Assembly: GCA_021824625.1 (NCBI GenBank)
Contig: JAKAKE010000024.1
Location: forward strand, 1-50,490
Reading direction: 5' to 3'
DNA: 50,490 nt
Source: Bacteroidota bacterium
GTDB lineage: Bacteria > Bacteroidota > Ignavibacteria > Kapaibacteriales > UBA2268
Below are positions 3,548 to 30,549 of the stretch, piece by piece; position 1 is the stretch's first letter, and every line of letters starts with the position of its first letter. The position numbers and the translations under genes are program-made. The notes beneath the pieces are model-generated. The model was given only the letters and a program-made list of their open reading frames with translations, did not search any database and was not told the DNA's origin.

Positions 3548-6500
3548 TTAGTCAATTAACCTGAAACCACCGACAACAACCGCGAATTTCTTTATTGTCT
3601 GGGCTCCGTTTGGTGTTGTTATCAAAGCTACCAGAATTTGACTTTGGACTCTCTGTTTATTGGTTGACAATAAATTCCAAACATCAACACCTTCTTTATC
3701 TGGGTCAGTTGATATATACTCATCATGTTTGATGGTTTGAATTAAATCACCTGTTACCGTATAAATATCAATATTACATATTTTTGGCAATCTTGTAAAA
3801 TAGATTTTAGCATCATAAGCCGATTTCTGACCCTGATGAGTAATATAGTAAGGATTTGGTACTACATCAACCTGGTCCAGAATATCATCTGTATAACTTT
3901 CAATATGAGGAACTGCAGAATCAATCCTAAACCTTACCTTTGCACCCGGCAGTGGGAAACCTAAGGCTCCACCTGTTGTTTTGAGAATGATTTTATCACC
4001 TGCGGCAAAATCAAGACCAAAAGTCTTCTTCTTAATCGGATCATCAGCCCATTCGTTGATTGTGCCAAGCCTGCCCGTCCATCTTGCATAATCGAGTGCA
4101 AAGGTTACACCTGAAGCCGATATGGTATTTACAAAGTCAACCGTATCACTCTTATCAGGTGTAAATCCGGTTATATAATATCTGCCCTGCTGACCGATAA
4201 AAGTAGCCCTCCCGGAATAAGGTTCAGTATTACGAATTGCAACCGATCTTTTTAAGGATAAAAACTTAACATACCTTGCATTTATATAACCATAAGCAGA
4301 TAAATTATACTTATTTATATAATCATCGTGATTATTTAATAGACTTCTTGGGTCGGTTGTTAATTTCGGAGGAACAGAAATTGTATCAATTCCAAGATTG
4401 ATATGCTGTAATTCGCCGGGATATGTAACATCTACTTCACCATTAAGACCAGGCCTTTTATATGAAATTATATTTGTTACCTTTACATTCAGATAAGGGA
4501 CTTCAAAGGTTTTTGTACCGGCATACCAGCTTAATTGCATTGTCTCAATTCCTCCCGGAAGAAATTCAACAAGATATTCGGCAGGACCATTGTTGAAACT
4601 TCCAATTTGAGCCATTCCATATCCTTGAAAAGCGAAATTACCGCTGGGATACCCAACAAATCTTTGGTTGGTTACCAAGAAATTTGTAACAGTTGTAGCT
4701 AACACTTTTTCCAAATCTCTCATCTGATTAGGTTGGTCAGTCATAAATGAAATGGGAGTAGTCGCTGAACTTGAAACTATTCCGCTCGATGAATCGGGCC
4801 TATAACGGCCTCCTCTCTGTTCTAATGTAAAATCAAATGTTAATCCTATTGTCCCATAAGCTTCATTAGCAAATCCGGAACTATAACAATAATTATCTTG
4901 TGTAAAATATCCTGTTGTAAACTTACCTGACCTAACAATTTTATCATTATTATAAGGTACACCAATTGAAATTTCTTTACCGCTGATAGTATCATGGATT
5001 GTCGTATCAGCAGAAACCAATGAATAAGCATCCTCAGTAAATAAGTTTCTAAACAGGAATGAACAAGGTGTCTGCTCAAAATATGTATTACCATTAAAGA
5101 GGATTTTTCCATCTGACAAATCCGTTAAAACAAGATGCCTCATATAAATACCTACATCCTTTGTTGTGGTTGTATTCAGAATTGGAAAACTATAGAAAGA
5201 CCATGCCGGTTCCAACGCAAGTTCAAGTTCATGTCCGGCATATAATTGTTGAGCCCTATCTGCATCAATGCCAAACATTTTAAAATTATACAAACCTCCA
5301 ATCTTTGCTGAATCAACATAAGTAACTTTGAAATCAATAGATTTCATAGCCGCTTCTGCTTTAGGTGATGTTTCTGCAACATTTGGTAAGTTCAAATCAC
5401 CTGTATTATGTTTCAATGGTGTTGGTTGATTATAATCACCTTCATCATAAGCTAAAATTTTGTAAAAATAATCAACATTATTAATTAATTTTTCTGTCTT
5501 AACCGGGTTTGATTCATACGAGACAACACCATCTCTATTATCATCGCCTATGTCAACAAATGTTCTATGATTGGTAATAAGGTCAATATAGGTTGATATG
5601 ACATCAGTTCTTACTTCCAATGACTGTTCAAACTCGGGGAAAAATTTTACCTGAGCAAATCCCTTTTGAATATAACTATAAACAGAATCAAGAACGGCTC
5701 TTAAATGCAGAGTATCTTTCATGGCTTGATGAATTTCATAAGGAATCAATCTATCAACTGCCATGTAATCCACGCCATTCACATTAATCTTCCTAAATGT
5801 ATTTCTAAAATAAATAGTATCGTTATCAAAATCACGTACAGATGAAGTATCAGCAACTGTTACTGTCTCCTTTTTTCTCAGTAGAGGATTATAAGTTAAT
5901 AATGCAGGATTCAAATGGACTGTACCAATTGACACTGTATCTAATAAATAATGTTTAAAAGTATTCGGGTTGAAAGGGTCATGGAAAACCGGAACTTCAT
6001 TACGGTTAAAATGCTTATCGTAGAACTTGCCCCATGGTGCAGTTAATATTGCTGTGTCAATACCCATGATTACAGGAAAATCATATCTTCCTGTATTTCT
6101 AAATAATACATCCGTAACCCAAGTATCAGGTCCTGCTAAAATAAATCCTTTGCCAATTCTCATTACTTTGATTGCCATTGAATCAATTGTATTGCCTATC
6201 ACAACCGGACCGGCTATTCTCATTGAGTCAATCAAAGGCATCTCCAAATCGTTCTTATTAGTACCTGCCCTGTTATATGATTTCCAAAAAGGAGATGGTA
6301 TTTCCCATTGGGCAAGCTGTTTATAACCGAATGGGCCTTTACCTCTGCTGTATTTGTTATTTGGAGTGATTTGGTCAACATCGAATGTGTCGAGGTTTGA
6401 ACTTCTGGCTCTGTAGAGTCGAAGTCCCATAAAATCCATCCCAGTCTCATAAATGTCATGTGACATTTCGGCGGTATTATCCCATTCAATTCTTACAGCA

Positions 6501-7939
6501 TTATTTAATGGAATCCATTTTTTAATTTGAGTCCTGTCGGGTGGCGATGGAGCTCTGAAATTATTATCATATACGCTTTGAGCAAACTTGACCTTACGTA
6601 CGAGTTCAGCAGCGTCTTCATCCGAACCATCTGCATCGGTTTTTGTTGCCGGCCCTGCTAACACCATACCGACAACAACTCTTACCGTATCATTCGGAAG
6701 AACATGAAAAGGGCCGGTTGCCATCATAAATCTTTTATCGCCAGCATTATCATCTCCATCCCTTCTCTCAGATGCCATAGTATTGTATCTGTCCTCATCT
6801 TCGTTTATATCTTCATCAATATTCCAGTTTTTAAAAGTTTTTAATCCTAACTGCTCGGATGTATTGTAAACTTTTTTATCCTTTCGAATAAATGAGTTTG
6901 CATCAACAGCAGGACTTTCTAAAAAGACAAATCCAAGATAACCGAAACCGTAACCTTTTTCGCCCCTTGGTATTCCAATGTCGGTCCACTGAAGAGCAAG
7001 GTTTAATGAAGGATCGGAACTATAATATTTCACACGGTCATTATCTGCGGCAGGGCTGGGATTTCTACCGATGTCAATGTCCATGGTAGGAGCCATCCAG
7101 CTATTAAAAAGTGTATCGGATGATTTATTAACAATATCATATTTAATAAAAATAAAATCCTTATAATCACCAAAACCCCAGGAGTAAATCATTTGTTCAA
7201 ATTGCAACTTGAACGGATAGCCTAACGGCTGGCGTAATCCTAACCCGCCATCAAACCTGTCAAGGTCTGTATCTTTATAGGTAGCAAAAATATCTTCACC
7301 CGATATGAAAGCAGGGCCATTGGGATACCTCGTTAATGTTCTGTCATTTTGGTCAGGTATGTAATATCCATAATACCTGTCCTTTTTTAAAGTGTCTTCA
7401 GGATTTTCACTTGCATCCCAAATAGGCCAATTATCCCTTTCTTTTGCTGTTATAGGTTTGCCGTCATTTGTTAAAAAATCGGTTGAAAAACAAGTTCTGT
7501 ATTTATAAATATCGGTTTCGTCAAACAAGTCTCCGTCTTCAATTCTGCCGGGGACCATCCATGATTTTCCATTATTGGGATTGTAAGTAATTTCAACAAG
7601 TTTATGGGGAACCGGATCGTTTGGTAAAAACTTCTGTGCGCCGAACCAAATACCGCCGCCGTAAATATATTGATTAAATGAGCCTCGGGGCCAGATTCCG
7701 CCTCCTTTATTATGCAAAACATCCAACCCGAAAATACCATAATTTGTTGTAAAGAACTGGATGTTGCTTATGGTATTTTCCTGAAGGTCAAATGGCCGTT
7801 CATACTTTCTTTGAATTTCATCAGTCTTGTCTTTATCACCGGGATTAACTTTGGTTTTTGCTAAAGTTCCAATTGTTAAAGCGATAAATAAAACAATAAC
7901 AAACAATGAAATAAACATTTTTTTTGTGAAGTTATACAT
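3548..7939 (-). CDS. Large secreted surface protein with T9SS/FlgD-like C-terminal domain
   Basis: I place the start at 7939 (1463 aa) because AGAGG lies 7 bp upstream of this ATG (7947-7951); an in-frame ATG at 7960 lacks such a site. Residues after the start form a signal peptide (MYNFTKKMFISLFVIV and following). The long middle has no recognised enzyme motif but contains fibronectin-like strands (NAVRIEWDNTAEMSHDIYET) and repeated Asp-rich turns. The C-terminal ~100 residues (VVPNPYY..., NIDIYTVTGDLIQTI, VWNLLSTNKQRVQSQILV) match the T9SS sorting/FlgD-Ig-like domain pattern. Proteins of this type commonly sit beside TonB receptors and PorV-like genes in Ignavibacteria-type genomes. It is flanked by the TonB receptor (29 bp from its stop codon to the 7960 ATG) and the PorV-like gene. 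Function is unknown. Confidence 0.8.
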   Translation of the reverse strand: MYNFTKKMFISLFVIVLFIALTIGTLAKTKVNPGDKDKTDEIQRKYERPFDLQENTISNIQFFTTNYGIFGLDVLHNKGGGIWPRGSFNQYIYGGGIWFGAQKFLPNDPVPHKLVEITYNPNNGKSWMVPGRIEDGDLFDETDIYKYRTCFSTDFLTNDGKPITAKERDNWPIWDASENPEDTLKKDRYYGYYIPDQNDRTLTRYPNGPAFISGEDIFATYKDTDLDRFDGGLGLRQPLGYPFKLQFEQMIYSWGFGDYKDFIFIKYDIVNKSSDTLFNSWMAPTMDIDIGRNPSPAADNDRVKYYSSDPSLNLALQWTDIGIPRGEKGYGFGYLGFVFLESPAVDANSFIRKDKKVYNTSEQLGLKTFKNWNIDEDINEDEDRYNTMASERRDGDDNAGDKRFMMATGPFHVLPNDTVRVVVGMVLAGPATKTDADGSDEDAAELVRKVKFAQSVYDNNFRAPSPPDRTQIKKWIPLNNAVRIEWDNTAEMSHDIYETGMDFMGLRLYRARSSNLDTFDVDQITPNNKYSRGKGPFGYKQLAQWEIPSPFWKSYNRAGTNKNDLEMPLIDSMRIAGPVVIGNTIDSMAIKVMRIGKGFILAGPDTWVTDVLFRNTGRYDFPVIMGIDTAILTAPWGKFYDKHFNRNEVPVFHDPFNPNTFKHYLLDTVSIGTVHLNPALLTYNPLLRKKETVTVADTSSVRDFDNDTIYFRNTFRKINVNGVDYMAVDRLIPYEIHQAMKDTLHLRAVLDSVYSYIQKGFAQVKFFPEFEQSLEVRTDVISTYIDLITNHRTFVDIGDDNRDGVVSYESNPVKTEKLINNVDYFYKILAYDEGDYNQPTPLKHNTGDLNLPNVAETSPKAEAAMKSIDFKVTYVDSAKIGGLYNFKMFGIDADRAQQLYAGHELELALEPAWSFYSFPILNTTTTKDVGIYMRHLVLTDLSDGKILFNGNTYFEQTPCSFLFRNLFTEDAYSLVSADTTIHDTISGKEISIGVPYNNDKIVRSGKFTTGYFTQDNYCYSSGFANEAYGTIGLTFDFTLEQRGGRYRPDSSSGIVSSSATTPISFMTDQPNQMRDLEKVLATTVTNFLVTNQRFVGYPSGNFAFQGYGMAQIGSFNNGPAEYLVEFLPGGIETMQLSWYAGTKTFEVPYLNVKVTNIISYKRPGLNGEVDVTYPGELQHINLGIDTISVPPKLTTDPRSLLNNHDDYINKYNLSAYGYINARYVKFLSLKRSVAIRNTEPYSGRATFIGQQGRYYITGFTPDKSDTVDFVNTISASGVTFALDYARWTGRLGTINEWADDPIKKKTFGLDFAAGDKIILKTTGGALGFPLPGAKVRFRIDSAVPHIESYTDDILDQVDVVPNPYYITHQGQKSAYDAKIYFTRLPKICNIDIYTVTGDLIQTIKHDEYISTDPDKEGVDVWNLLSTNKQRVQSQILVALITTPNGAQTIKKFAVVVGGFRLID

Positions 7940-7988
7940 ATATTTTCCTCTCATTATCATATTTAATTTCTTATTTGCTTAAATAACG

Positions 7989-10900
7989 TTAAAACCTGAA
8001 CATAGCCCCGAAATATACGGTAATTGGGAGTTGATAATTTCCCTGGAATTTACGGTTTATTTCAAGTTGTTTTTTAAAAGCCTGGAATTTCTCGGTCTGG
8101 GTAACCACACCATTTCCATCGAAATCCGAGTTCACATTATATTTTCTGTTACCAAAATAATCATATTGGTCAGGTTTAAAAGAATCGGTATTTGAAAAAT
8201 CTGCTTCCTTGTATAATGTTGTTGAAGAAAAACTGCCCTGTGTATAATAAAATGATGTACCATCATCATCAGGGTCACCTGTTACTATATAATAATTATT
8301 AGCACTTCTAATATTAAAAATATTAAATACATCAACAAAGAATTCAACTGAGGATTCCCCAAAATCTTCACCAAATATATCCTTAAATTTAAACATCTTG
8401 GATAATCTCATATCTGTTCTCCATGCAGATGGCCCCCTTTCAGCATTTATTTCACCTACTACTTTACCTTTAATATCCCTTTTTGTGTAAGGTGTACCCG
8501 TCTGGAAAAATGTCGTAAAGCTTATATTTGTATTTTCCAATGGTTGAATGCCTGCTATTGATGGCCCCTGATTATCCCTCCAGTCAAAAGTAAGATTGAA
8601 GTTGATTCTGTGCCTTCTGTCCCATGACATGGGATATTCGGATAATGGATAAGCGGGTAAATTCGTATATGGGTCAATTGGCATTTGATAGTTATCTCCG
8701 GCATTTGAGGACGTACCATTTGCTGAAGATAAATTATAATTCAACGAAAATCCAATATTATCTGTTGCTGTTACATTTTTTCTTAATGTAAATTCAAGTC
8801 CTTTTGCATTTCCATATTCGGCAACAGTATATAGGTAGAATGATACGGGAACTGCCGGAACATACATGATTCCAATTTGATTATATATATCTTTATAATA
8901 TGCAGTTACATCAAATGCAAAATCATCGGATATTTGATTACTATATGAAACCTGGTAAGCATTTACACGTTGTGCATCCATATTCGGATTGCCGAGTATT
9001 TGATTACCGCGAAGTCTGGGTGTAGCAAATCCATCATATAAATTCTGAAATTCAGGAATTTTGAAATACATGTCATAAGCAATAGAAACATTTGACCGTT
9101 CGGTTATTGGATAGGTAACGTTAACTCTCGGGCTAATTTGGAACTTCATCTTTGAGTTGGCAAATCCGGTATCGGATAATATTGAAATAAAATCAGTATT
9201 TGTTGTTCTATAATTCGAATTTGGTGTAAAGATGTCGAACCGCAAACCCGGACTGATAATGATTCCTTTATAAGAAATCTGGTCCTGCAAATAAAGAGCG
9301 CCGAGCATAGGCTTATAAGGTTTGCTTGTCATTTCCCATGTCCTTTGGTCTTCAGCATAGAGGTTTCCTCCCCATTCGTCCGTGTAAACATCAAAAAACG
9401 GGTCGGCTACCCAAGGTAAATTATTTTCATGCCTGTAAAGTTCATAAAATCTGAAGTCAATTCCGGTTTTAAACATATGGGAAAATTCACCTTCTATGTT
9501 CAACGAATAATTGCCTTCTACCTGCCAGTAATTACTTTTCCTGAATTCAAAATATCTGTTATTGCCATGGGTTGCATAAGTATTATCTCTCCCAAATGGA
9601 TTATCGGTGCCTGAATCATTTATATCACCTTCTATATACCCCGTAATCGGATTAATTTTTCGCGAAGCACCCCTCAGATAACCATCCGCGGTTGAAATGA
9701 TTGTAGGTATAACCTCAAATTCATCAATAATTCTGTTCTTACCCGAAACCAAAGTATTTTGGTCGGCTTTTACTTTATCAAAGGGATACCACATTTCGAA
9801 ACCTGTAAAGAAATTCGGGTTAATTGTCGGGTCCTTGATTTCTGCTTCAGAAGGGAACCTGCCATCTATATAATCAGTAACAGAGTACCCCGGGTAAAGA
9901 TTTCTTTTTGATGTTTCATCGGCATTTGTATTATTTGAGATTGTTAATTCATAAAAACTTTTATCAGATAATGTATGATTTATTCGTGCCATTAGGTTCA
10001 TCACGAGTGTATTATTCACCGGCAATTTTGCTATATATTCAGGCAAACTATTACTAACACCGTTTATTACACCAAAATCACGTGCATAGAGCCAATTTGT
10101 TGATGGTACTGAGGCTATTTCAATGTTAGTCAAGCCCCACATACCACCTACAAGAAGGTATATGTCATCGGAAATTCCCCACTTCGTTTTTACGGAAAGA
10201 TTTTTCACCCAGCTTCTGTTATTATCCAATCGTCCAATATTATCTTGCCCTCGTTCAGGATGATTTACGTCCACCGGATTATAAATCTTATAACTTGCAT
10301 TTCTGTACTTTTCGTATAAATAATAACCTGACATAAAGAAGGTTGAGTTACTAAGAATAGGAATGGGGCCACCTGCTCCAAATTCAAATATATTCTGTTG
10401 TGGACCCTGAAGTTTATTTCCTTCTCCAGTATGAATTGCAGTCAATTTTCTCCCGTCATCTTTTAACACCAAATCAGTTAGCTGCGAACCCCATAAGGCA
10501 TCCACATCCGTTCTCCATCTAATAAAACCTTCATATTTATCAGTACGCCCGACTTTACTTACAGTATTAACAATACCTCCAAGGGCATTACCATATTCAG
10601 GAGCGAACGCACCTGTATTTACCTGTACTTCTTCAGTTGCATAAGCACTAATCATTGGAAAATATGTTAATCCGGCAGCACCGAATCCACCTGTGAATTG
10701 ATTGCCTAAATCTATTCCATCAACCCTGATTTGCGATTCGGTTTGGCGGCTCCCACGAATATTGTAGCCGTTATTACCCTGAAAGACACCGGCACTCAAA
10801 CCGATTACCGATTGAATTCCTTCGCGGGCGACATGAGTTAATCCATCAGATGTTATTTTTCTTTTGGTTCCGATTTCTGTATTATTAACCATAACCTTTG

Positions 10901-11249
10901 TACCAAAGACATCAACCTGTCCCATTTTTTTAATCTCTGAGTTCAGTTTAACGTTGATGTCTGTGGTTTCATCAGCAGATATTCTTATGGTAGTTGTATA
11001 TTTGGAATAACCGACTGCAGTAACCTGAACCTGGTATTCACCGGAATTGATGTTAACGATTGTAAATCTTCCATCTTTATCTTTGACATAAGTGCCGCGG
11101 GGTGTTCCGATTACTCTGACAGTTGCACCAATCACAGGTTTGCCTTCGTCATCAACAACTTTGCCCTTTAGGGTACCGTAAATACCGGCATAAGTTGTGA
11201 GAGGAAATATTAAAAAGCTAATTAAAAATAAAGTCAATATTTTTCGCAT
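7989..11249 (-). CDS. TonB-dependent receptor with carboxypeptidase-like regulatory domain
   Basis: A 1086-aa outer-membrane receptor. After the signal peptide (residues 1-21) comes a CarboxypepD_reg-like domain (GTLKGKVVDDEGKPVIGAT, residues ~25-105), then a plug domain (~130-235, including GIQSVIGLSAGVFQGNNGYNIRGS and VDGIDLGNQFTGG), then a 22-strand-type barrel ending in a C-terminal aromatic (VYFGAMFRF). This domain order is typical of SusC-like and related receptors in Bacteroidota that import glycans, siderophores or peptides, energised by TonB-ExbBD. No SusD-like partner is adjacent, so the substrate is unknown. It lies between a T9SS-sorted protein (30 bp upstream) and the large surface protein (downstream), probably in one transcript. 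Confidence 0.93.
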   Translation of the reverse strand: MRKILTLFLISFLIFPLTTYAGIYGTLKGKVVDDEGKPVIGATVRVIGTPRGTYVKDKDGRFTIVNINSGEYQVQVTAVGYSKYTTTIRISADETTDINVKLNSEIKKMGQVDVFGTKVMVNNTEIGTKRKITSDGLTHVAREGIQSVIGLSAGVFQGNNGYNIRGSRQTESQIRVDGIDLGNQFTGGFGAAGLTYFPMISAYATEEVQVNTGAFAPEYGNALGGIVNTVSKVGRTDKYEGFIRWRTDVDALWGSQLTDLVLKDDGRKLTAIHTGEGNKLQGPQQNIFEFGAGGPIPILSNSTFFMSGYYLYEKYRNASYKIYNPVDVNHPERGQDNIGRLDNNRSWVKNLSVKTKWGISDDIYLLVGGMWGLTNIEIASVPSTNWLYARDFGVINGVSNSLPEYIAKLPVNNTLVMNLMARINHTLSDKSFYELTISNNTNADETSKRNLYPGYSVTDYIDGRFPSEAEIKDPTINPNFFTGFEMWYPFDKVKADQNTLVSGKNRIIDEFEVIPTIISTADGYLRGASRKINPITGYIEGDINDSGTDNPFGRDNTYATHGNNRYFEFRKSNYWQVEGNYSLNIEGEFSHMFKTGIDFRFYELYRHENNLPWVADPFFDVYTDEWGGNLYAEDQRTWEMTSKPYKPMLGALYLQDQISYKGIIISPGLRFDIFTPNSNYRTTNTDFISILSDTGFANSKMKFQISPRVNVTYPITERSNVSIAYDMYFKIPEFQNLYDGFATPRLRGNQILGNPNMDAQRVNAYQVSYSNQISDDFAFDVTAYYKDIYNQIGIMYVPAVPVSFYLYTVAEYGNAKGLEFTLRKNVTATDNIGFSLNYNLSSANGTSSNAGDNYQMPIDPYTNLPAYPLSEYPMSWDRRHRINFNLTFDWRDNQGPSIAGIQPLENTNISFTTFFQTGTPYTKRDIKGKVVGEINAERGPSAWRTDMRLSKMFKFKDIFGEDFGESSVEFFVDVFNIFNIRSANNYYIVTGDPDDDGTSFYYTQGSFSSTTLYKEADFSNTDSFKPDQYDYFGNRKYNVNSDFDGNGVVTQTEKFQAFKKQLEINRKFQGNYQLPITVYFGAMFRF

Positions 11250-11279: not shown

Positions 11280-13226
11280 TTATCTCACAATTGTAATCAT
11301 TTGGGTTGCTCTCTGTCCGTTAGACGATACAGTGCAGAAGTATGCACCGGCAGGGAGGTTTTCAATATTTAATTTTACCGATTGCACACCTGCTCCTCTT
11401 AATCCCAAGAATACATTTTTCACAACCTTTCCCATCAAATCGTAAATCATTATATCAACTTTCCCATCGTTTGGCAAATTGAAATTAAATTCAGCATTTT
11501 CATCCATCGGATTTGGATAGATGCTTGTGATGCTGAGTTTGGAATTGATATTTGTAGTTTCATCAACATCCAAAACACTTGATGCATCAAAATTTCCAAT
11601 CATCACATATTGGGGATAAAGTTCAAGATATCTTTGTCTTTCTCTTGCAGTGGCAGGGTCATCTCCCGGATTTGGTATTGTTTCAATTTTCAAAATTGGG
11701 ACATTCAACAACCCATTTGGCACATAATCTGGTATCCATGTAATCCTGTCCCATATTTCACTAAGGGTTATATCGAGAGGTTCTCCCCAACTCGAATTCT
11801 TATATCTACCATTAACTAATATATCAGTTGTATTAACCGTTTGCTGTGTTTGCTGGTCAACCAATCCTAAATACTCAACCCATTTACATAAAATTGTATT
11901 ACCATCGAATGAACGGGACATTTGAAGTTCATAACCCATCTGATTGTTGGTTCCTGAAGGTAGGTATGCAATAACTAAGCCAGATACATCAGCAATTTTT
12001 CTTATACCCCAGCTGCCGTTCTCTTTATAAATTTCGACAATTTGTTTTAATTGCAAAGAATCAGGTTGTGATACACCATCAATAGCTCCATCATAAACAT
12101 CTAAAGCAAAACTAAAATCCCCGTTATCAAAAACAACAAAGCCTTTTCCATTATAATTCATAAAAATACTGTCGGGGTCAAAACCTATAGCAGCAGCATA
12201 ATCTCTGAGAAGCTGATGGGGTGATACATCAAATTCGCTCCAGGTCTCACCATAGTCAGTTGATATTGACACTCCAAGTTTCACTCTGTTATTAGGTGCC
12301 TGGCTGACAAAATTTCCCTCAACAGCCATATACATTGAATTATTAGGACCGTATTCCAAATCAATAATTGAAGCTGACCTAGTGCTATCCTGACTCACAG
12401 GGTAAAATTTCGCGCTTAGCCATTGAGCTGGGATCTTCGGTGTCCATTTGTCAAAAGTCATTGTTTTTCTGAGTCCGATATTACTATTATTATCCCATTG
12501 ATTTCCTCCGGGGGGCATTAATCCACCGACTGCAAGACCAAATGCATCTGTACCATCAACACCACCGAGTATCATAGACTCAGTACCAGCCCAGCCATAA
12601 TCCTGACCATCATAATTAAACGCACCATTAAATGAAGCTGGTGGTTTATCAACAACATTATATAACCCGTTAACATATCCGTACCAACCTGAAGCATTAT
12701 TTGTTGGTGCAGTAAAAACATAAGTAAGAATGTTTTCATAACTAAAGGCGTGAATACTTGGATAACGGGCTGTGCCATAACCTCCGGGTGATTTTGCATT
12801 AAATATTAGTTCAGGAGCAGTCCAATCTTGTCCAAGGTTGGTTGATGTCAATAAAAATAAATTATCCTTTGTATTAGTTCCGGTATAATTTGGGTCTTTT
12901 TCCAAATCTGTATAACCTCTTTTTATAGTAACCAAAGTGCCGGAAGGAATATGATAAACAAAAGGCTTTTGACTATCTGTAAAATATGAATAAGCATTTG
13001 AAAGAGAATCCAAAATTCTGAAATCAACTGCTTGTATTGTATTTTGTTTTTTAACTTTTAAAGTAAAATTTTCGGATACTGCGGAAGGAGCTATTTCTTT
13101 AGGTCCCCCAATATTAGGGATATGATTCTTCAGTGCGGGAAATTCCTTTGCAAGTGTTGTTGCAAACAATCCGAGAAACAGCATTAAAGCCGTACTTATA
13201 GTAATGAGAGAGCGTAACAATTTCAT
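11280..13226 (-). CDS. T9SS-sorted exported protein with BNR/sialidase-like repeats
   Basis: A 648-aa protein with a signal peptide (hydrophobic residues 8-25). Asp-box-like repeats (STNLGQDWTAPELIF; ISTDYGETWSEFDVS; SRSFDGNTILCKW) suggest a beta-propeller of the sialidase/BNR type. No catalytic Arg triad could be assigned, so an enzymatic role is not claimed. The C-terminal ~75 residues are a canonical T9SS type A sorting domain (SIYPNPMDENAEFNF, VDIMIYDLMGKVVK, LPAGAYFCTVSSNGQ, final ITIVR), which directs export across the outer membrane and surface attachment. It precedes the TonB receptor by 30 bp and probably heads the cluster, with a GGAGG ribosome site about 6 bp before its ATG. Confidence 0.85.
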   Translation of the reverse strand: MKLLRSLITISTALMLFLGLFATTLAKEFPALKNHIPNIGGPKEIAPSAVSENFTLKVKKQNTIQAVDFRILDSLSNAYSYFTDSQKPFVYHIPSGTLVTIKRGYTDLEKDPNYTGTNTKDNLFLLTSTNLGQDWTAPELIFNAKSPGGYGTARYPSIHAFSYENILTYVFTAPTNNASGWYGYVNGLYNVVDKPPASFNGAFNYDGQDYGWAGTESMILGGVDGTDAFGLAVGGLMPPGGNQWDNNSNIGLRKTMTFDKWTPKIPAQWLSAKFYPVSQDSTRSASIIDLEYGPNNSMYMAVEGNFVSQAPNNRVKLGVSISTDYGETWSEFDVSPHQLLRDYAAAIGFDPDSIFMNYNGKGFVVFDNGDFSFALDVYDGAIDGVSQPDSLQLKQIVEIYKENGSWGIRKIADVSGLVIAYLPSGTNNQMGYELQMSRSFDGNTILCKWVEYLGLVDQQTQQTVNTTDILVNGRYKNSSWGEPLDITLSEIWDRITWIPDYVPNGLLNVPILKIETIPNPGDDPATARERQRYLELYPQYVMIGNFDASSVLDVDETTNINSKLSITSIYPNPMDENAEFNFNLPNDGKVDIMIYDLMGKVVKNVFLGLRGAGVQSVKLNIENLPAGAYFCTVSSNGQRATQMITIVR

Positions 13227-13384: not shown

Positions 13385-14803
13385 TTAAAAATTTATCTGA
13401 ATTCCATAGATTATAGTAGCGGTTGATTTCAATCTCCTGCTCACACTTTCACCCGGTAAGCTTGCCTGAAACAACCTCCCCTCAGTTCCAACGGTTACAG
13501 AAAATCCATCAAGAAATTCATAAATACCGAAAAGCTTCCCGTAGCCTAATGGCCCGTCATGGGACATTCCAAATCCTATCCTTCCTTCGAGGGACAAATC
13601 ATCAGACTTAATCAAGGACCTTTCATAAAATGCAGAACCCCATACCATTTGCCTGTGATTTTCCAGGGTCATTGAATATTCGAATAAATCAACTCCTATC
13701 GGAATGTCAAATTCAGATGTCTCGATCATCTGTGTCTTACCGGTGCTCATCGGCTGGTATGGTAAAGGCAGAACAACATTTTCTTTATAGGCATATTCAG
13801 AATAGCCTATTTCTATTCCTAATTTCTCATCATTATCAATTGTATAGGCTAAACTCTGTGAAAAGTTGGTAACAGCCATTTTCTCACCGTCACCAAGTCC
13901 TGTACGGATAAAATCTGTGCCGAGAAAAGATGAGAAAATGACTTCTGTTTTCTTCTCACCGGGCTTCATTGGAACCGGTAAACCGGCAATTTCCGCAGGT
14001 TTGGTTTTGTTGGTTACTAAATTATTAAAATTATTTATTTCTGCTCTGCCATCCTTTTTCAGTGTCTCCTTTTTATCTTTAGCTGACGGTGTACTATATA
14101 ACGCAACTGAAGGTTTAGATTCATTATCCTCAAGTTCATCAATATTGTTATTTAATACGGGTGATATATGTAATGGCGAAGCGTCCCACATCACTTCTGT
14201 CTTTTTATCAGCACTCACTTCAATGTCAGATATAACAATCTCATCGGCATGAGCGATTCCTTTTCCTCCACCTTGAGCGGATGAAACCGAAGAAACAGCC
14301 ATGTCATTTGTTGAAACTCTTCCAACAGCCGGAGGAACCATGTTATTAATAATTCTGCCGGTAGAAGCAGCAAGATTATCACCGGTAATAACGGGTGATG
14401 TTTCAGGTTCATTATTTTCTGAACTTAATTCTGAAATTTGAATTCCAAGTTTTTTTCCAAGACTGCCTAAAGTCATATCATCAATTTGAAATACAAAACT
14501 GAAAATGAAAAAAACAATCATAGCCGCTAAAACCTGTGAACGTCTCCATAAGAAAGGACGTTCAATTATAATAGGCCGGCTTGCAAGAATCTTCATCAAT
14601 ATAATATCTTCAGTCTGCCTGAGTAGAGCCTCGGGAGCATCTATTGATTGAGAATCCTCTTTCATAGCCAAATGTACAGAAACAGCCGAATCGAATTTCT
14701 CACGGGCATAATCATCTTCCGAGAGTAATTTCCTCAGAAGAACATCTTCCTCTTCGGTCAATTCTCCGTCAATATACTTCGATATGTGGTCATCAAGCTC
14801 CAT
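13385..14803 (-). CDS. Predicted anti-sigma factor fused to an outer-membrane-barrel-like C-terminal domain
   Basis: A 472-aa protein encoded immediately after, and overlapping by 11 bp, an ECF sigma gene. Residues 1-50 resemble the anti-sigma N-terminus (ISKYIDGELTEEEDVLLRKL), but lack the zinc-binding His/Cys residues of classical zf-HC2 proteins. One transmembrane helix follows (about residues 90-107). Residues ~110-290 are a low-complexity linker. From ~290 to the end, alternating amphipathic segments (KLGIEIGYSEYAYKE, LEGRIGFGMS, FSVTVGTEGRLFQ, ATIIYGIQINF) end in a terminal Phe, the signature of outer-membrane beta-barrels. Position next to the sigma gene and the N-terminal motif support an anti-sigma role. 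The barrel assignment is inference from strand pattern only. A paralogous architecture occurs at 29144-30532. Confidence 0.7.
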   Translation of the reverse strand: MELDDHISKYIDGELTEEEDVLLRKLLSEDDYAREKFDSAVSVHLAMKEDSQSIDAPEALLRQTEDIILMKILASRPIIIERPFLWRRSQVLAAMIVFFIFSFVFQIDDMTLGSLGKKLGIQISELSSENNEPETSPVITGDNLAASTGRIINNMVPPAVGRVSTNDMAVSSVSSAQGGGKGIAHADEIVISDIEVSADKKTEVMWDASPLHISPVLNNNIDELEDNESKPSVALYSTPSAKDKKETLKKDGRAEINNFNNLVTNKTKPAEIAGLPVPMKPGEKKTEVIFSSFLGTDFIRTGLGDGEKMAVTNFSQSLAYTIDNDEKLGIEIGYSEYAYKENVVLPLPYQPMSTGKTQMIETSEFDIPIGVDLFEYSMTLENHRQMVWGSAFYERSLIKSDDLSLEGRIGFGMSHDGPLGYGKLFGIYEFLDGFSVTVGTEGRLFQASLPGESVSRRLKSTATIIYGIQINF

Positions 14804-15371
14804 AAAGCTCCTCTTTCAATGGTGTCAACAATTTCCTCATTATTTCCCTTGCACGGAAAACACGAACTTTTGCAAGAGATAAATCTATGTTCAAAATATC
14901 GGCAATCTCCTGATACGAACATTCTTCGTATTCCCTGAGCAGAAGGGCTTCCCTCAATGCTAAAGGCAATATTGCAATTGCCTTTTCGATGCAATCCTTC
15001 AATCCGATATCCGGCTCATTTTTTCTTGCCGAAAAATGAATCACTTCATCGAACTCATCGTGTTCTTTCCGTGTACGGATACTATTCAAGCAGGTGTGCC
15101 GTGCAATCGTAAAAAGCCATGCCTGAAAATTATCCCCCCTAAACTCTCTTCTGTGCTCAAACACTTTTATAAAAATCTCCTGGAATGTGTCTTTTGCAGA
15201 ATCCTCATCTCCCAACATTCTCAGGCAGAACCTGTAAACTTTTTTATTATATCTTTCATAAAGCAAATGGAAGGCTTCGGCACTCCCCTTCCTCAAATCT
15301 TCAAAAGCTTCTTGAAGTCTTTCGGGTTGCAACCCTTCATGGTCGTCAATATTTCCCATGTGTTTATCCAT
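14793..15371 (-). CDS. ECF-type RNA polymerase sigma factor
   Basis: A 192-aa sigma-70 family protein of the extracytoplasmic-function group. Region 2 is clear (AFHLLYERYNKKVYRFCLRM, then DSAKDTFQEIFIKVFEHRREF and FQAWLFTIARHTCLNSIR), and region 4 is a helix-turn-helix (LREALLLREYEECSYQEIADIL, DLSLAKVRVFRAREIMRKLL). Region 3 is absent, as expected for ECF factors. The gene overlaps the start of its putative anti-sigma partner by 11 bp (ATGGAGCTTGA), indicating translational coupling. A 42-unit heptanucleotide array lies about 150 bp upstream. The regulon is unknown, but the adjacent envelope proteins suggest cell-envelope stress or surface-protein control. Confidence 0.93.
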   Translation of the reverse strand: MDKHMGNIDDHEGLQPERLQEAFEDLRKGSAEAFHLLYERYNKKVYRFCLRMLGDEDSAKDTFQEIFIKVFEHRREFRGDNFQAWLFTIARHTCLNSIRTRKEHDEFDEVIHFSARKNEPDIGLKDCIEKAIAILPLALREALLLREYEECSYQEIADILNIDLSLAKVRVFRAREIMRKLLTPLKEELYGA

Positions 15372-15473
15372 AAATCAGCATATTTATTTAAACAGCACTT
15401 CCGCTTTTAAACATAAAGACACATCTACTATAATAAAAGTTACAACCATATTTAAAAAAATTTTCAATTTCCA

Positions 15474-15820: not shown

Positions 15821-17899
15821 TTATTCATTTACGGGAGTTTCAATTTTAATTTTTACTGTCCTGCAATAGCTCCTGCCTTGAGGCAAGTCATTGTTATATA
15901 AAAGGACATCGCTGCCAATCGGATTAATATTCAGATTGGATTTATTAACATTTAGTATGTTTTGAACTTCGTTACAACGTCTCAGGGCGAGTTCCCTATT
16001 GTATATTTGTTCGCCTGTTCTATCAGCATATCCTTCAATTGTTACAATAGAATTAGGCATAATCCTTTGTTTTATTTCATCCAATATTTTCTTATGGCCG
16101 GGTTTAATATTTGCCTTATCATAATCAAATAAGATTAAAGAAAATCTTTCTATTCTTTTATCTTCCTTCAGTTCATATCTTTTCTTTCTGATAGTCAACT
16201 GCTCAATAAGAAGAGAAGTTTCAGCTTCTGTCATTTGGTCAACATTATCATTTGCAGTTAACTTTATTTTCACAGGCGAATCAAGTTTCGGAATCGGTTC
16301 TTTCTCAACTTCCCAAACCAGCTTTCCAGGTTCCTTGATTGTCATTCTGAGCGAAGTCGAAGAATCTCTTGGTGAATATTTTCTTAATACATTACCTGAT
16401 TGTTCAACTGTTATCTCCCAATCTGTCAATTCAGCCTCACAAAGAATATTTGGTTCAATCTCGACAACAGGTGGATTTGATTTCCTGTCTATTTCTTTCA
16501 GGTAAACAGGTTTTAATAAATCAAAGCTTGTAGAACTTAATTCTGCTCTTTGATTCTCAATCTGTCCGTCAATAACAGTGTTATTACCGGGATTTTCGGG
16601 AAGGTTTCTTTCATTAACAATTAATCTTTCAGGTTTGATTCCCCAAATATTAACTAAATACTCCTTAACGGCTTCTGCTCTCTTTCGCGACAAATTTAAA
16701 TTATTTGTTTCAACTCCCAGATTCTTATTACAGCCTGTGAGTGTCAGTTTCTCCTTTGGCTTATGCCTCATTCTGTATCCTACAATATTGAGCAGGTCGG
16801 AATAAATATCCATAATGTTCCGATTCATAGAATCCTCGACGAAAGAGTTAGTCTTGCTCTTTGTCAATAGATGCAATCCTGTTGTATTAATATCCGAACT
16901 ACCCTCTTTAAAAAACACATGAGGAAGCAAAGGAAAACCTTCTTCAATTTCAGTTTCCTCTATAACAATAGTTGGAGTCTTCTGTCTGTTGCCATCTGCA
17001 CTGATACCGTAGGCTTCAATGGCGGCTGTCAACTTTGGTTTTGGCAATGGTAAAACCGTGTCAACCCGTTCAATCTTTTTTATAACCGGTGGAGGTTCAA
17101 CATGAGGATAAAATGGAAATTTTATGGATGCTCCCAATTGCAAATGATTTGGTTTCCAATTAACGGATGTTACATTTATAAAACCGATATAATATTTAAT
17201 TTCAGGTATTAAATACGTATTTCTTCCAATTGGTAATTCATAGCCCAGTCCAACCATACCAAATAAAAGGATAGAATTTTTATTAGGTATTTCAATGTTA
17301 TAATAATCATTTTGAATTGTTCTTCCATCAAGAAATGTAACATTTTCAGGAGAAATTAATTGTTCCTTCTGGTTCATTGTTCCCGTAACAATATACCCGG
17401 CTTTTAAACCAAAACTTGCAATAAATCCATGCAAAAATTTCATTTTAAAAATTGGTTCAAAACTGATAATATCAATTTTTGAATCAATTGTATGGTCAAC
17501 TGCCACATCCACAACCTCGGTAATCCCGTTTCTCAAAACTGTTGTATTGGCTATTTTTTTATCATGAACCAATAGCTCGGCACCGATAGAAGAATAACCT
17601 GATCTGCCCTCGATAAACATATCGTTTTTGATTTCATAATCAAACAATGCACCAAGGCTGAAACCGCTTCCTGTACCACTTGTGAAACCCTTGCAACAAT
17701 TCGGCACAGGCGGTATTTCTTTGAAATCGGCACTATGAATATTCAGATTATATCCTGCATATCCACCGAGATAAAATAGTGGTTTGAGACTCTTCAGAGT
17801 TGTATCATTGCTCTCACCCCGAGCATTATCTAAGAGTAAAACATAAGTTATTGCAATAACAAATAAAATTTTAAATATTTTCATTTTTTTATTCTTCAT
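15821..17899 (-). CDS. OmpA-like outer-membrane protein with two OmpA-like modules
   Basis: A 692-aa protein. The ATG at 17899 lies inside a heptamer array, and Met6 (17884), which begins MKIFKILFVIAIT, gives a more ordinary signal peptide, so the true start may be there. Residues ~35-260 look like a porin-type barrel (FYLGGYAGYNLNI, GSGFSLGALFDYEI, GLGYELPIGRNTYLI). Two OmpA-like regions follow: one around residues 340-450 (LNLSRKRAEAVKEYL) and a canonical C-terminal one at ~590-690 (FDYDKANIKPGHKKIL, VTIEGYADRTGEQIYNRELA). The C-terminal domain normally binds peptidoglycan. Between them, at residues ~510-520, a dispersed DNA repeat is translated as SSTSLRMT. Stop is followed at once by the 42-unit heptamer array and then the ECF sigma gene. 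Confidence 0.85.
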   Translation of the reverse strand: MKNKKMKIFKILFVIAITYVLLLDNARGESNDTTLKSLKPLFYLGGYAGYNLNIHSADFKEIPPVPNCCKGFTSGTGSGFSLGALFDYEIKNDMFIEGRSGYSSIGAELLVHDKKIANTTVLRNGITEVVDVAVDHTIDSKIDIISFEPIFKMKFLHGFIASFGLKAGYIVTGTMNQKEQLISPENVTFLDGRTIQNDYYNIEIPNKNSILLFGMVGLGYELPIGRNTYLIPEIKYYIGFINVTSVNWKPNHLQLGASIKFPFYPHVEPPPVIKKIERVDTVLPLPKPKLTAAIEAYGISADGNRQKTPTIVIEETEIEEGFPLLPHVFFKEGSSDINTTGLHLLTKSKTNSFVEDSMNRNIMDIYSDLLNIVGYRMRHKPKEKLTLTGCNKNLGVETNNLNLSRKRAEAVKEYLVNIWGIKPERLIVNERNLPENPGNNTVIDGQIENQRAELSSTSFDLLKPVYLKEIDRKSNPPVVEIEPNILCEAELTDWEITVEQSGNVLRKYSPRDSSTSLRMTIKEPGKLVWEVEKEPIPKLDSPVKIKLTANDNVDQMTEAETSLLIEQLTIRKKRYELKEDKRIERFSLILFDYDKANIKPGHKKILDEIKQRIMPNSIVTIEGYADRTGEQIYNRELALRRCNEVQNILNVNKSNLNINPIGSDVLLYNNDLPQGRSYCRTVKIKIETPVNE
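16341..16368 (-). repeat. Dispersed GTCATTCTGA-type repeat inside the OmpA-like gene
   Basis: Plus-strand sequence starts GTCATTCTGAGCGAAGTCGA and continues AGAATCTC. Related copies lie at 23941-23966 and 45515-45539 (intergenic) and, in reverse orientation, at 46457-46482 inside the GAF/GGDEF gene. Here it is read in frame as DSSTSLRMT, the same peptide frame as in the GAF/GGDEF protein (DPSTSLRMT). Confidence 0.85.
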
Positions 17900-17931
17900 T
17901 TTGAATTTTACATTTTACATTTTGAATTCTA
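17897..17931. repeat. Heptamer-periodic array spanning the 29-bp gap and an ORF start
   Basis: Five consecutive 7-bp units in one register: CATTTTG, AATTTTA, CATTTTA, CATTTTG, AATTCTA. The first unit includes the annotated ATG of the OmpA-like gene (CAT at 17897-17899) and the last contains the stop codon of the upstream multi-domain gene (17929-17931). Confidence 0.75.
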
Positions 17932-20900
17932 TTTAACTACCATCACAGGAATAACAATCCGTCGTGTCGGTGATTTCAATATTAAATAGTATATCCCGCT
18001 CGACACATTTTCTAATTCCAAATTGTAATGGTAATCTATATCGGAATTGAGTTTGACATCCCATTCCTTAATTTTAGAACCATCTCCAGTCAAACCCATC
18101 AATTCAATTTTATAGCTGCCTGTTTCAAGAACTGTAATATTTACTTCCAAAAATTCATCAGCCGGATTAGGAGACACAGACATAGCAATCGGACTACCAT
18201 GTCTCAGCAATCTGTCTTGTCCCCGTCTGCAAATTTGAATTTCGAGACTGCCGTTTTCCATAGTCGGAGGGTTGATGGTTTCACCGCCAGTCCACTGAAA
18301 ATCAAGCCATCTAAGGTCTGTGTAAGTAGTATCACCTAACAAAGTGTATCCGATTATTTCAGTCAATAATGAATCAGTTTTACTAATATTAACATCACTC
18401 ACTTGAATTGAAATGACAACATTTTTCCTGTCTCTCGATAAAGAAAGGATGTTACCTTTACTCATTGATACAGGAAAGAACAAGGTAGAATCAAAACCAA
18501 TATCGGCAACGAATGTTGAACCCATTAGAGTTTCATTCGGATTTTCAAGTTTCCCATAAACAGGGATTCGATAGCCGTCTTGGTCAGGTGATACATCCGG
18601 CAAGTGCGGCAGCCAGACACGCATTGACTTTTCCGGTGAACCCCTTCCGTTTACAATTACACTTACACTGTCAATGCAGGTGAGAACTTGTATTCCAAAA
18701 TGCATAGTATCTTCATAATATTTTAATGAATCGGGTGTAAATTGAATAGTTACAACCAGACTATCTCCGGGTTGCAGGATTGTAATAGGAATCGGGTCAG
18801 GATTTGTCCTGAAATTCCCGAAGAATGAAATTGGTACAATAGTAACAGGTAGAGTTCCAACATTTTTTAGAACCAGTTTTCGTTCTGCGGTTGAACCGAC
18901 TGTAACATTTCCAAAAGCAACCTGGTTTGGTATCATCAAAATACCGCTTCTTCTTTCCCCTCTTAATGAAGTAACGACTTCCATCGTATCGTTATTCATA
19001 AAAATCGGAATTGCCAGCTCAGCCTGTTTTATTCCATCTGTTGAACCCTGAGGATGAAACTGAACATCAATAAAACAGGAATCACCCGGATTAAGTATCT
19101 TCGTATATGAATTAGTATCGAGAATGTTGAATAAAGATTTATCCAATCCTCTTAGATAGGGATTTGGCAAAAGTTCAATTGAAGCAGTTCCGGTATTAGT
19201 AACCATAACAATCAACACCGAATCTTCGCAGGGAGCAAGAATACCAAAATCAAGACTCGTAGTATTTTCAATATTTCCAACAAGTCCATCACCTTTGACA
19301 TCTACAATAAGTGAATCGGGACATGGAATATCAAAAATAAATTTCAAATGTGCTGTTTGAACACCACTATTTATGAAATTCATACTAATATCGAAGTCTG
19401 CTGTTCCTCCATTCGCTGCTATAGTTGCTGTTTGAGGATTTAAGCTGACATTAGAATTATCAATTTCTACTCTTAAGACATGAACATCAAATTCACTGTT
19501 ATTTGTTAATGTTATTGTTTGTGTTCGTATTTCTCCAATAGGTACAGCTCCAAAGTCAATCATAGATGGCGCAGAAACTCTTATGCTGTCACTCCTGGCT
19601 GTAAGTGGAACGACTATATTCGGTATTGAAGGTTCATCCGTACTAATTGAAAAATCAGCATTCTTAGTTCCCGATGCACCGACCGAAGGAATAAACTCAA
19701 TTATATACATTTCACTGCTATTTGGCAGTAGTGTATAAGGAACATTAGAAGGCTCTGTAACAATTCTGAAAAATGCAGGATTTGCCCCTGTTATTTGTCC
19801 TCTCGATGTAATACTGACAGCACCTGTTCCCCTGTTGGTAACAATAATTGTATCGAGCTTGGTCCGGCACATACCGAGTAAACCGAAATCAATTGAATAT
19901 TTATTCAACTCAATCAAAGGTATAACAGAATTTCCTTTTACTCTGATAAAAGCGGTGTCAATACAAGATTTTCCCTGCATTACAGAATAAGCAAAATAAT
20001 TTGTTGAATCATTACCTTCAACCGTTGGTGCATATTCAATATAGACTTCAACGCCCTCATCTTTTTTAAGCAGTATAGGAACAGAAGGAACTGAATATAA
20101 TACTTTAAATGGCGGATTTAGAATCGGCAAAGTAGTTATTAAAGCATCGCTCGAACCAGTATTTCTCAGATATGTTGTCAATGTATCCCTTGTGCCGACT
20201 TTAATATCTGTGAAAGTAATATCATTCGAGAAAGTAATATCTGTTCTGACTCCTTCACCAATTAAAGTTACAGTGTCAATTACTGAAGGACATTCCAGAC
20301 TACTAACAAATAATTTTGCAGTAATAATTCCTTCACTTGTCGGTTTGAAACTAACATAGATTGTGCTTGTATCTCCCAAAGGGATAGTTCTCTTTCCTGA
20401 TATGCCGCCATCATAATCTGTTGTTGATGAAAAGACAAGGTCTGCAATGTTTATATCAATGCTGGAGGCATTTTTAAAATTAAAATAAACTTCCTTTTTG
20501 TCTCCAACACATACTTTTCCAAAATCAATTGTATCAATGTGAAAAGGTGATAAAATATCCAACAAATAATAATCAACTGAATCAATTATAGCCTCATAAG
20601 CAATCTGCCAGGGTTTATATCTCGATTCATAATCATTGTTGTAGATTATAAGTGTATCACGAATGATTCCTGTCTGACCTGGCTGGTATGTGTATCTCAC
20701 AATAACTTCCTGCGAATCTGCCGGTGCTACCGACACTATATTTGTCGGCGTTACAATTGAAAAACCACTCCCCGGATTTTTGAATCCTGATGAATCCATT
20801 CTCATAATTAAATTTGCTTTCCCAATATTATGAATCTGAATTGTATCGTCGTGTGTATTACCTTCACATCCGACAATCCTGAAAGAAATCAATGTGTCGC

Positions 20901-22737
20901 TGTCAATAACAGGAAGTAAAATAACCCTGAAAATGTTTGCTGCGGATTGAGACATTACTGCTTCCGGGTCCCAAAGATGGTCTGTCATATTCTGAAAAGG
21001 ATTAGTAACATCCTGTATAACCGCAAAAAAGTAGAGTGAATCATCACCTTGCAGATCAAGTGGAATTTGCCAATTGGCAACAGGTGGTAAAACCTGTATA
21101 ATTTCCTGCCATACACCCGATTCAGGCTTAATGAAAAAATGCAGATTCTCAGCAACATTTCTACTGCCTGTTAAATTGAATTGCCTCTTAACAAAATTGG
21201 ATGTATCTGTCGTCGGACCGCGATATTTGGTAGCTTCAGGAGGCACAGTTACAGGACCGAAATTCCAAATCGGGTAATCGTGCCTGATTCTGCCGGCTCC
21301 ACCGGGAACACCGCCGCCCATCCCGCCAGTTGTATTTGCTATTCCTCCGTTTATAGCTATTCTTGTGTGGTACGAAACACTTCCCCCTGAACCTCCTCCG
21401 CCATGAGCGCCATTATCACCGGTATGCCCTTCACCACCTTCAGCCGTTAAACTGATATTCGAAATAATCGGTGCATAAAGTCTTACAGCACCACCGCCAC
21501 CACCACCGGAGCCAGAACATTCGATTGCCGAAAATGGATTTAATTTTTGAGGATTTCCACTTGCACCGCCTGAACCACCTGCAATAGGCACTACCATGCT
21601 GTTACCGTACATTCTGCCGCCATTCTGAGTTCCGGAACTTATTCCATTCGTTGCATATCCCCCGGAACCACCGTTTTTCCTTTGTTGATAACCGCTGCCT
21701 CCGCCAAAACCACCCATGGGGTCATCAGAATTTCCATCTGCTGTTCCAACACCAGGCTTACCGAAAGGATGGCCTGTACCTCCGCCTGATGCTTCATAAG
21801 AATTCGGATTTTGCTTTGGAGGATAAATTCCATTGATACTGTATCCTTTTGATGGGTTACTGCCAGTTCCAAAACCAACAGATTTTAAACTTCCTCCTCC
21901 GCCGATTACTCTGTTTTCACCGCCTTTGCCGCCACCTGTAAATCCATCGCCTCCGTCATCACCTTGTGTTCCGCCAGAATTAACATCACAGAATCTGCCA
22001 CCGCCGCCGCCGCCGCCGGGACCCGCATGTCCGCCATGTCCACCTGCAGATATTTCTCCGTCAACGGTTATTTTAGTATTATTTCCTCCCTGTACTTTTC
22101 CGATAGATAATAAAACAAAAGGTAAAAATGCTTCGTTTGCAGGTGTTGAAGGGTCACAATCAATAGTTGAAACATTATAACTGACATTTGCTAAAATCAT
22201 AGAATCTACAATCATCGCTCCACGCTTCGACCTTTTTCCAAGTGAGCCGGAGCCTAATGTCCAATGTGCAATTCCTGTCGCATCTCCAATGTGAAATGGA
22301 TTTACTATATAAAATGTATCAATGTTTGATGATACACCCATCACCGTTACTTTGTAAGGTATTCTGAAACTTGAACTAAGCAGATTCCAATCCCATGAAT
22401 TGGGCTGAACTGACGGACGAATAAATACTTGTGATGAAATCATCCTTCCGCCCCAGCTAACGATAATGGGCCCGAAAGTAATTTTCTGTGCATCCGAAGG
22501 ATTCACACATTCTAATCTCACCACGTCACCGGGATTATTTCTATATATAGAATCCAACCAGAAATTTTGTGCCGAAGCCGGTACATTGTCCGGGTCAAAC
22601 GGGCAAATTATATCAACATATACATTCATTCCCGGAGCTCCGATATCAGGAATAATATATGATATTCGAGGTTGTGAAATCAATGATGAAGTTAATGTTA
22701 ACATCAAAATCGAAGTGAGTAGCAAAAACTTTTTCAT
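17929..22737 (-). CDS. Giant T9SS-sorted protein with about seven ASH (choice-of-anchor D) domains and a Gly-rich block
   Basis: A 1602-aa exported protein with a signal peptide (hydrophobic residues 4-20). Residues ~230-480 are extremely glycine-rich (runs such as GPGGGGGGG and GGSGGASG), enclosed by more ordinary beta-rich sequence. From ~630 to ~1450 there are about seven ASPM/SPD-2/Hydin-like Ig repeats, each starting near DFG or VG (HIDTIDFGKVCVGDK, YSIDFGLLGMCRTK, MIDFGAVPIGEIRTQ, TSLDFGILAPCEDS, NQVAFGNVTVGSTA). The end is a T9SS type A sorting domain (SVSPNPADEFLEVNI, YKIELMGLTGDG, SSGIYYLILKSP). Such proteins are surface or extracellular; an adhesive or structural role is inferred. 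It has a good ribosome site (AAAGGAG) and lies upstream of the OmpA-like gene with only 29 bp between. Confidence 0.87.
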   Translation of the reverse strand: MKKFLLLTSILMLTLTSSLISQPRISYIIPDIGAPGMNVYVDIICPFDPDNVPASAQNFWLDSIYRNNPGDVVRLECVNPSDAQKITFGPIIVSWGGRMISSQVFIRPSVQPNSWDWNLLSSSFRIPYKVTVMGVSSNIDTFYIVNPFHIGDATGIAHWTLGSGSLGKRSKRGAMIVDSMILANVSYNVSTIDCDPSTPANEAFLPFVLLSIGKVQGGNNTKITVDGEISAGGHGGHAGPGGGGGGGRFCDVNSGGTQGDDGGDGFTGGGKGGENRVIGGGGSLKSVGFGTGSNPSKGYSINGIYPPKQNPNSYEASGGGTGHPFGKPGVGTADGNSDDPMGGFGGGSGYQQRKNGGSGGYATNGISSGTQNGGRMYGNSMVVPIAGGSGGASGNPQKLNPFSAIECSGSGGGGGGAVRLYAPIISNISLTAEGGEGHTGDNGAHGGGGSGGSVSYHTRIAINGGIANTTGGMGGGVPGGAGRIRHDYPIWNFGPVTVPPEATKYRGPTTDTSNFVKRQFNLTGSRNVAENLHFFIKPESGVWQEIIQVLPPVANWQIPLDLQGDDSLYFFAVIQDVTNPFQNMTDHLWDPEAVMSQSAANIFRVILLPVIDSDTLISFRIVGCEGNTHDDTIQIHNIGKANLIMRMDSSGFKNPGSGFSIVTPTNIVSVAPADSQEVIVRYTYQPGQTGIIRDTLIIYNNDYESRYKPWQIAYEAIIDSVDYYLLDILSPFHIDTIDFGKVCVGDKKEVYFNFKNASSIDINIADLVFSSTTDYDGGISGKRTIPLGDTSTIYVSFKPTSEGIITAKLFVSSLECPSVIDTVTLIGEGVRTDITFSNDITFTDIKVGTRDTLTTYLRNTGSSDALITTLPILNPPFKVLYSVPSVPILLKKDEGVEVYIEYAPTVEGNDSTNYFAYSVMQGKSCIDTAFIRVKGNSVIPLIELNKYSIDFGLLGMCRTKLDTIIVTNRGTGAVSITSRGQITGANPAFFRIVTEPSNVPYTLLPNSSEMYIIEFIPSVGASGTKNADFSISTDEPSIPNIVVPLTARSDSIRVSAPSMIDFGAVPIGEIRTQTITLTNNSEFDVHVLRVEIDNSNVSLNPQTATIAANGGTADFDISMNFINSGVQTAHLKFIFDIPCPDSLIVDVKGDGLVGNIENTTSLDFGILAPCEDSVLIVMVTNTGTASIELLPNPYLRGLDKSLFNILDTNSYTKILNPGDSCFIDVQFHPQGSTDGIKQAELAIPIFMNNDTMEVVTSLRGERRSGILMIPNQVAFGNVTVGSTAERKLVLKNVGTLPVTIVPISFFGNFRTNPDPIPITILQPGDSLVVTIQFTPDSLKYYEDTMHFGIQVLTCIDSVSVIVNGRGSPEKSMRVWLPHLPDVSPDQDGYRIPVYGKLENPNETLMGSTFVADIGFDSTLFFPVSMSKGNILSLSRDRKNVVISIQVSDVNISKTDSLLTEIIGYTLLGDTTYTDLRWLDFQWTGGETINPPTMENGSLEIQICRRGQDRLLRHGSPIAMSVSPNPADEFLEVNITVLETGSYKIELMGLTGDGSKIKEWDVKLNSDIDYHYNLELENVSSGIYYLILKSPTRRIVIPVMVVK

Positions 22738-30532: not shown

Positions 30533-30549
30533 TGTAATTCTGCTATTAA

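Follow-up and report, generated by a model that had tools for sequence, protein, structure and literature searches.

The locus described here raises the question of whether a single polypeptide can inform an ECF sigma factor of the state of the outer membrane. The window, by which we designate the whole stretch of DNA analysed (50,490 nucleotides of contig JAKAKE010000024.1, from a Bacteroidota bacterium), contains an ECF sigma factor gene overlapped by a gene for a putative anti-sigma protein. The initial annotation had proposed that the C-terminal region of this protein resembles an outer-membrane barrel and that, if it is a real one, one chain would connect outer-membrane assembly state to sigma activity in a manner unlike known systems.

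Gene pair and domain organisation

The sigma product presented matches to Sigma70_r2 (PF04542, 2e-18), Sigma70_r4_2 (PF08281, 1.1e-13) and, above cut-off, TIGR02937; Sigma70 regions 2 and 4 within a short protein of 192 residues define it as an ECF sigma factor. The previously noted 11-bp overlap with the anti-sigma gene was confirmed at positions 14793-14803, with coordinates and strand exact. Homologues of the fusion were found as a single open frame in 40 of the 60 nearest genomes and an ECF gene lay directly upstream in all 30 homologous loci fetched, indicating that the fusion is not a chance reading frame. The offset between the two genes was -11, -14 or -4 bp in 43 of 46 cases. The named relatives carrying the fusion were mostly Ignavibacteriae, Ca. 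Kapaibacterium (placed in Bacteroidota by NCBI) and MAGs labelled 'Bacteroidetes', and the fusion and its ECF partner are conserved across this order of the Kapabacteria/Ignavibacteria type. Relatives of the pair were also detected in MAGs labelled Desulfobulbaceae and Bradyrhizobiaceae, whose conserved gene order makes mislabelling of the bins probable. The same type of anti-sigma domain occurs in other Bacteroidota, mostly beside ECF genes, in proteins of 155-275 aa apparently devoid of a barrel.

Features of the window on and around the sigma/anti-sigma locus (all on the reverse strand)
Feature	Position	Strand	Basis
PorV/PorQ-family protein (T9SS-related)	2463..3497	-	NF033709, 6e-51
1470-aa protein, no Pfam or NCBIfam match	3548..7960	-	homologues after TonB-receptor-like gene in other loci of the order
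CarboxypepD_reg + Plug TonB-receptor-like outer-membrane protein, conserved	7989..11249	-	domains, synteny
T9SS-tail (cargo) protein, conserved next gene	11280..13226	-	PF18962 / TIGR04183; synteny
Anti-sigma / putative outer-membrane barrel fusion gene, 472 aa	13385..14803	-	ORF, model, conserved fusion beside ECF gene
Eight-stranded C-terminal barrel, residues 288-472 (modelled)	13388..13942	-	model; Foldseek and VIA-align matches to OmpA/NspA
Disordered periplasmic tether, residues 105-281 (modelled)	13961..14491	-	pLDDT ~35; 134-228 residues in homologues, 15% identity
Transmembrane helix, residues 84-104	14492..14554	-	model; hydropathy peak 89-107
Anti-sigma domain, residues 1-75, four helices	14579..14803	-	model; sub-threshold zf-HC2; ~50% mean identity among homologues
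ECF sigma factor gene, 192 aa	14793..15371	-	PF04542, PF08281, TIGR02937
Predicted ECF autoregulatory promoter TGTAAC-N17-TGTC	15418..15444	-	33/45 orthologous upstream regions, 0/31 paralogous
OmpA-family protein, upstream, conserved in several loci	15821..17899	-	PF00691, synteny
Choice-of-anchor-D protein, weak T9SS-tail match, upstream, conserved in several loci	17929..22737	-	synteny
Paralogous anti-sigma / barrel fusion, 462 aa	29144..30532	-	profile match of both domains, model, fold search
Paralogous ECF sigma factor, 186 aa	30550..31110	-	

The AlphaFold2 model of the anti-sigma protein, built on a 29-sequence alignment, comprises four helices (residues 3-75), a membrane helix, a disordered segment and eight strands (288-471), with pLDDT of about 90 for the helical domain and most strands, one barrel loop excepted. 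Model and hydropathy profile agree on the one transmembrane helix of the initial annotation. The anti-sigma N-terminus of the protein matched zf-HC2 below cut-off (first 24 residues, E 0.012), and 12 of 29 homologues matched at E up to 0.1 (best 1.2e-4); with regard to the His/Cys zinc ligands of this family, the window protein has no Cys within residues 1-75. Mean identity of homologues to the window protein was about 50% in the anti-sigma domain and 34% in the barrel; the tether shows only 15% identity among homologues, but its length (177 residues here) is maintained.

Sequence searches yielded no PDB relative, the one match being meaningless (E 0.51). Searches by fold (Foldseek, VIA-align) matched residues 283-472 to the outer-membrane barrels of NspA (Z 16.6), OmpA (16.3-16.5), OprF (16.1) and OmpW (14.6). 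The C-terminus was modelled as an OmpA/NspA-like barrel and not as a soluble sandwich, and every close homologue examined was fused and sigma-linked, with no separately encoded C-terminal part. Together, the model, the fold searches and the conserved fusion support the earlier reading of a barrel carried on the same chain as the anti-sigma domain, and its fold resemblance suggests that this barrel would insert in the outer membrane.

At least five sigma/barrel anti-sigma pairs of this kind are encoded in the window's genome, two of them within the window. Profile comparison identified the second pair (29144-31110) as homologous to the first in both domains of the anti-sigma protein, and its fusion yielded a similar model and similar matches by fold. 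This second pair is preceded by a gene for a TolB-like protein (31139-32248) and followed by one for a lipoprotein-like product (28359-29060).

Conserved association with T9SS genes

The pair belongs to a conserved cluster with genes of the type IX secretion system (T9SS), encompassing cargo, TonB-receptor-like, PorV-family and OmpA genes. In the large majority of some 60 loci the pair precedes genes for a T9SS-tail protein, for a TonB-receptor-like protein or for both, after which, wherever the flank extends far enough, the 1470-aa gene has its homologues. The OmpA and choice-of-anchor-D genes precede the pair in several loci, and within the window the PorV/PorQ-family gene lies in the same gene run. 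SprA is represented in the genome by fragments, and T9SS-tail genes number at least 150. A simple scan, which provides weak evidence, detected no terminator between the anti-sigma and cargo genes, and co-transcription of the cargo gene with the pair is assumed, since the promoter motif described below was not found upstream of it.

The OmpA-family gene is separated from the sigma promoter by a tandem array of the heptanucleotide ACTTCCG (42.6 copies, 15523-15820), and similar repeats are present at the same place in one congener.

Promoter motif and predicted regulon

The sequence upstream of the sigma gene, TTGTAACTTTTATTATAGTAGATGTGTCTT, contains a TGTAAC-N17-TGTC motif that, with exact spacing, was identified upstream of 33 of 45 orthologous sigma genes. 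The motif was absent from all 31 sigma genes of the paralogous family, from all 29 Bacteroidales ones, and from the region upstream of the second pair in the window. Pattern searches with the extended form of the motif, TGTAACTTT-N14-TGTCTT, returned 62 sites in 54 genomes of the family, some of them at the ECF gene itself, against 2 for a reversed control (31-fold). Besides those at sigma genes, the sites lay mostly 13-139 bp ahead of an open reading frame. The loose motif presented no genome-wide excess over its reversed control in the genus; over-representation was clear only for the extended form, and single loose sites, such as that at 35148-35174 inside a gene of the window, were hence treated as chance occurrences. 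A copy of the loose motif also lies 26 bp ahead of a gene for a BlaI-like repressor; the gene after it encodes a membrane protein whose tail resembles TonB (BlaR1/TonB-like, as judged by eye), and an identical site occurs in two congeners.

Among the 31 complete proteins encoded by the putative targets, 22 carry a T9SS tail, three are TonB and one is ExbD/TolR. The apparent bias towards T9SS-tail proteins is strong relative to a background that we estimate at about 5-8% of genes (150 or more tail genes over an assumed total of ~3,000). A binomial test with an assumed background of 8% gave p ~7e-18, a value that overstates independence because orthologues from related genomes are among the 31 targets, which form 17 clusters. 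These results are consistent with a regulatory network in which the sigma factor would control T9SS cargo and TonB/ExbD genes.

The predicted network might instead belong to another ECF factor, or to several, with the pair regulating its own operon locally. The genome encodes about ten ECF factors, another of which could read a similar promoter, and the loose motif lacks genome-wide excess. Against this, the motif is characteristic of this sigma gene throughout the order and is missing from the whole paralogous family, while the extended form is strongly enriched over its control and its targets are functionally coherent. We therefore consider it unlikely that the regulon is that of a different sigma factor, and favour its assignment to the sigma factor of the pair.

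Relation to the Dma and Reo proteins

The notion that no known system operates in this way had to be abandoned. Both Reo (PMC9308784, PMC13114119) and Dma1-3 (PMC13088901) span from the cytoplasm to the outer membrane, and published genetics provide experimental precedent for the architecture, notably for Dma2 and Reo. The Dma proteins of Bacteroides thetaiotaomicron (Dma1/Das1, Dma2/Das2 and Dma3) are encoded beside an ECF sigma gene, combine an anti-sigma domain and a transmembrane helix with a disordered tether and a barrel, and function through their ECF partner (PMC13088901). Reo of P. vulgatus, described as spanning all five compartments, reaches the cell surface from the cytoplasm through a C-terminal outer-membrane barrel and restrains its own ECF sigma factor, EcfO, whose gene responds to envelope toxins with strong induction (PMC9308784, PMC13114119). 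The EcfO-Reo regulon (B. fragilis / Phocaeicola vulgatus) includes nigD and O-antigen-related functions, and NigD is a signature regulon member in Bacteroides.

The four-part organisation and the ECF neighbour are shared with Dma, and it could hence be proposed that the window pair is an orthologue of Bacteroides Dma/Reo, that is, an envelope-stress anti-sigma of the same ancestry and regulon type. As a comparison set, we used 33 Bacteroidales fusions located beside ECF genes, collected from genomes carrying NigD, which on architecture and context are putative Dma proteins; one of these loci adjoins a NigD gene. In a Bacteroidales-type genome, locus L126 (391-2031, reverse strand) encodes a 547-aa fusion of sigma factor, anti-sigma with transmembrane segment and barrel, resembling Dma3 as published.

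Homology via the anti-sigma domain was not detected against the 33-member profile: the two families align with an hhalign probability of 2.3 over 14 columns, and the anti-sigma domain of the window protein is the longer one. With the same profile, full-length comparison returned probabilities of 45-53, at the C-terminus only, a weak match that favours common ancestry, whereas the barrels compared on their own gave 1.3-7.2. The Pfam OMP_b-brl family was matched by the Bacteroidales barrels, not by those of the window family. Membership in the Dma family would also imply a partner sigma of group ECF21; the partner sigma factors of the two families fell into separate clades in a tree of 87 sequences. 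The promoter motif differs as well, the predicted targets are T9SS/TonB genes and not nigD, and no NigD was detected in the window's genome at the threshold of the search. The window protein thus resembles Dma and Reo in its presumed working, but the lack of anti-sigma similarity, the faint similarity of the barrels and the separate sigma clades give no support to membership in their sequence family and render orthology doubtful.

Proposed mechanism

We propose that the pair constitutes a sensor of outer-membrane/T9SS state, in which a one-chain anti-sigma protein governs the genes of T9SS cargo and TonB energy supply together with its own operon, and we regard this proposal, taken as a whole, as likely. 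At rest, the cytoplasmic helical domain would bind the sigma factor and keep it at the inner membrane, with one helix crossing that membrane, the disordered tether crossing the periplasm and the eight-stranded barrel residing in the outer membrane. The input would be an altered state of the barrel, be it failed insertion, a ligand, or contact with neighbouring TonB-receptor or T9SS proteins. The signal would be relayed along the same polypeptide, most likely through a cut in the tether and subsequent intramembrane proteolysis, and the released sigma factor would then transcribe its own operon from TGTAAC-N17-TGTC, as well as scattered genes with the same promoter, mainly those for T9SS cargo and TonB/ExbD. 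Gene context and predicted targets point to T9SS cargo and TonB more specifically than to the outer-membrane assembly state originally suggested.

An ordinary inner-membrane anti-sigma protein with a long periplasmic sensor, ending in a soluble beta-barrel ligand-binding domain, could also be envisaged from the matches to soluble barrels (PsbO, Z ~11 for the window protein; avidins, Z ~11 for the paralogue) and from the absence of any Pfam outer-membrane-barrel family match in the barrels of the window protein family, but it is very improbable: outer-membrane barrels rank clearly higher (Z 14.5-16.6 for the window protein) and cover the whole domain up to the last residue, summed strand alternation exceeds that of shuffled sequences (p 0.006, with amphipathicity beating shuffles at p < 0.05 in just three of the eight individual strands), the C-terminal residue is Phe, Leu or Tyr in most homologues, and the tether is kept at no fewer than 134 residues.

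The outer-membrane reading, which we retain, suggests that signalling from the outer membrane to sigma factors on one polypeptide has arisen or diversified more than once in the Bacteroidota, with different anti-sigma domains. A concrete promoter and a set of predicted targets are also available for the pair, and the motif makes the regulon testable by in vitro transcription without culturing the organism.

Comparison with known systems

In the FecA-FecR-FecI system, an outer-membrane barrel protein informs an ECF sigma factor, with FecA and FecR being separate proteins that meet in the periplasm. The window pair would likewise convey information from an outer-membrane barrel to an ECF sigma factor, and its operon also includes a TonB-receptor-like gene, but here barrel and anti-sigma domain lie on one chain.

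The PorXY-SigP system of Porphyromonas gingivalis provides a parallel on the side of the regulon, with an ECF sigma factor controlling T9SS genes and a T9SS-tail protein, PorA, feeding in a signal from the surface (PMC7712824). Control of T9SS-related genes by an ECF sigma factor is only predicted for the window pair, from motif targets of which 22 of 31 carry a T9SS tail; by analogy with PorA and SigP, a signal coming from a cargo protein is plausible here too. SigP works via a two-component system and how its signal crosses the envelope is unknown, whereas here the anti-sigma protein itself would reach the outer membrane; the targets predicted here are cargo and TonB, as opposed to the por machinery. 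A tethered barrel would offer a direct and testable route for such a crossing.

Like Reo, the window protein, encoded beside an ECF sigma gene, is predicted to run as one chain from the cytoplasm to an outer-membrane barrel, but it stems from a different lineage. The Dma barrel bears no clear relation to that of the window protein, which is set in a T9SS operon context, and the targets of Dma are NigD/PUL genes. The architecture is therefore already known, and the new part is the prediction of a T9SS/TonB regulon.
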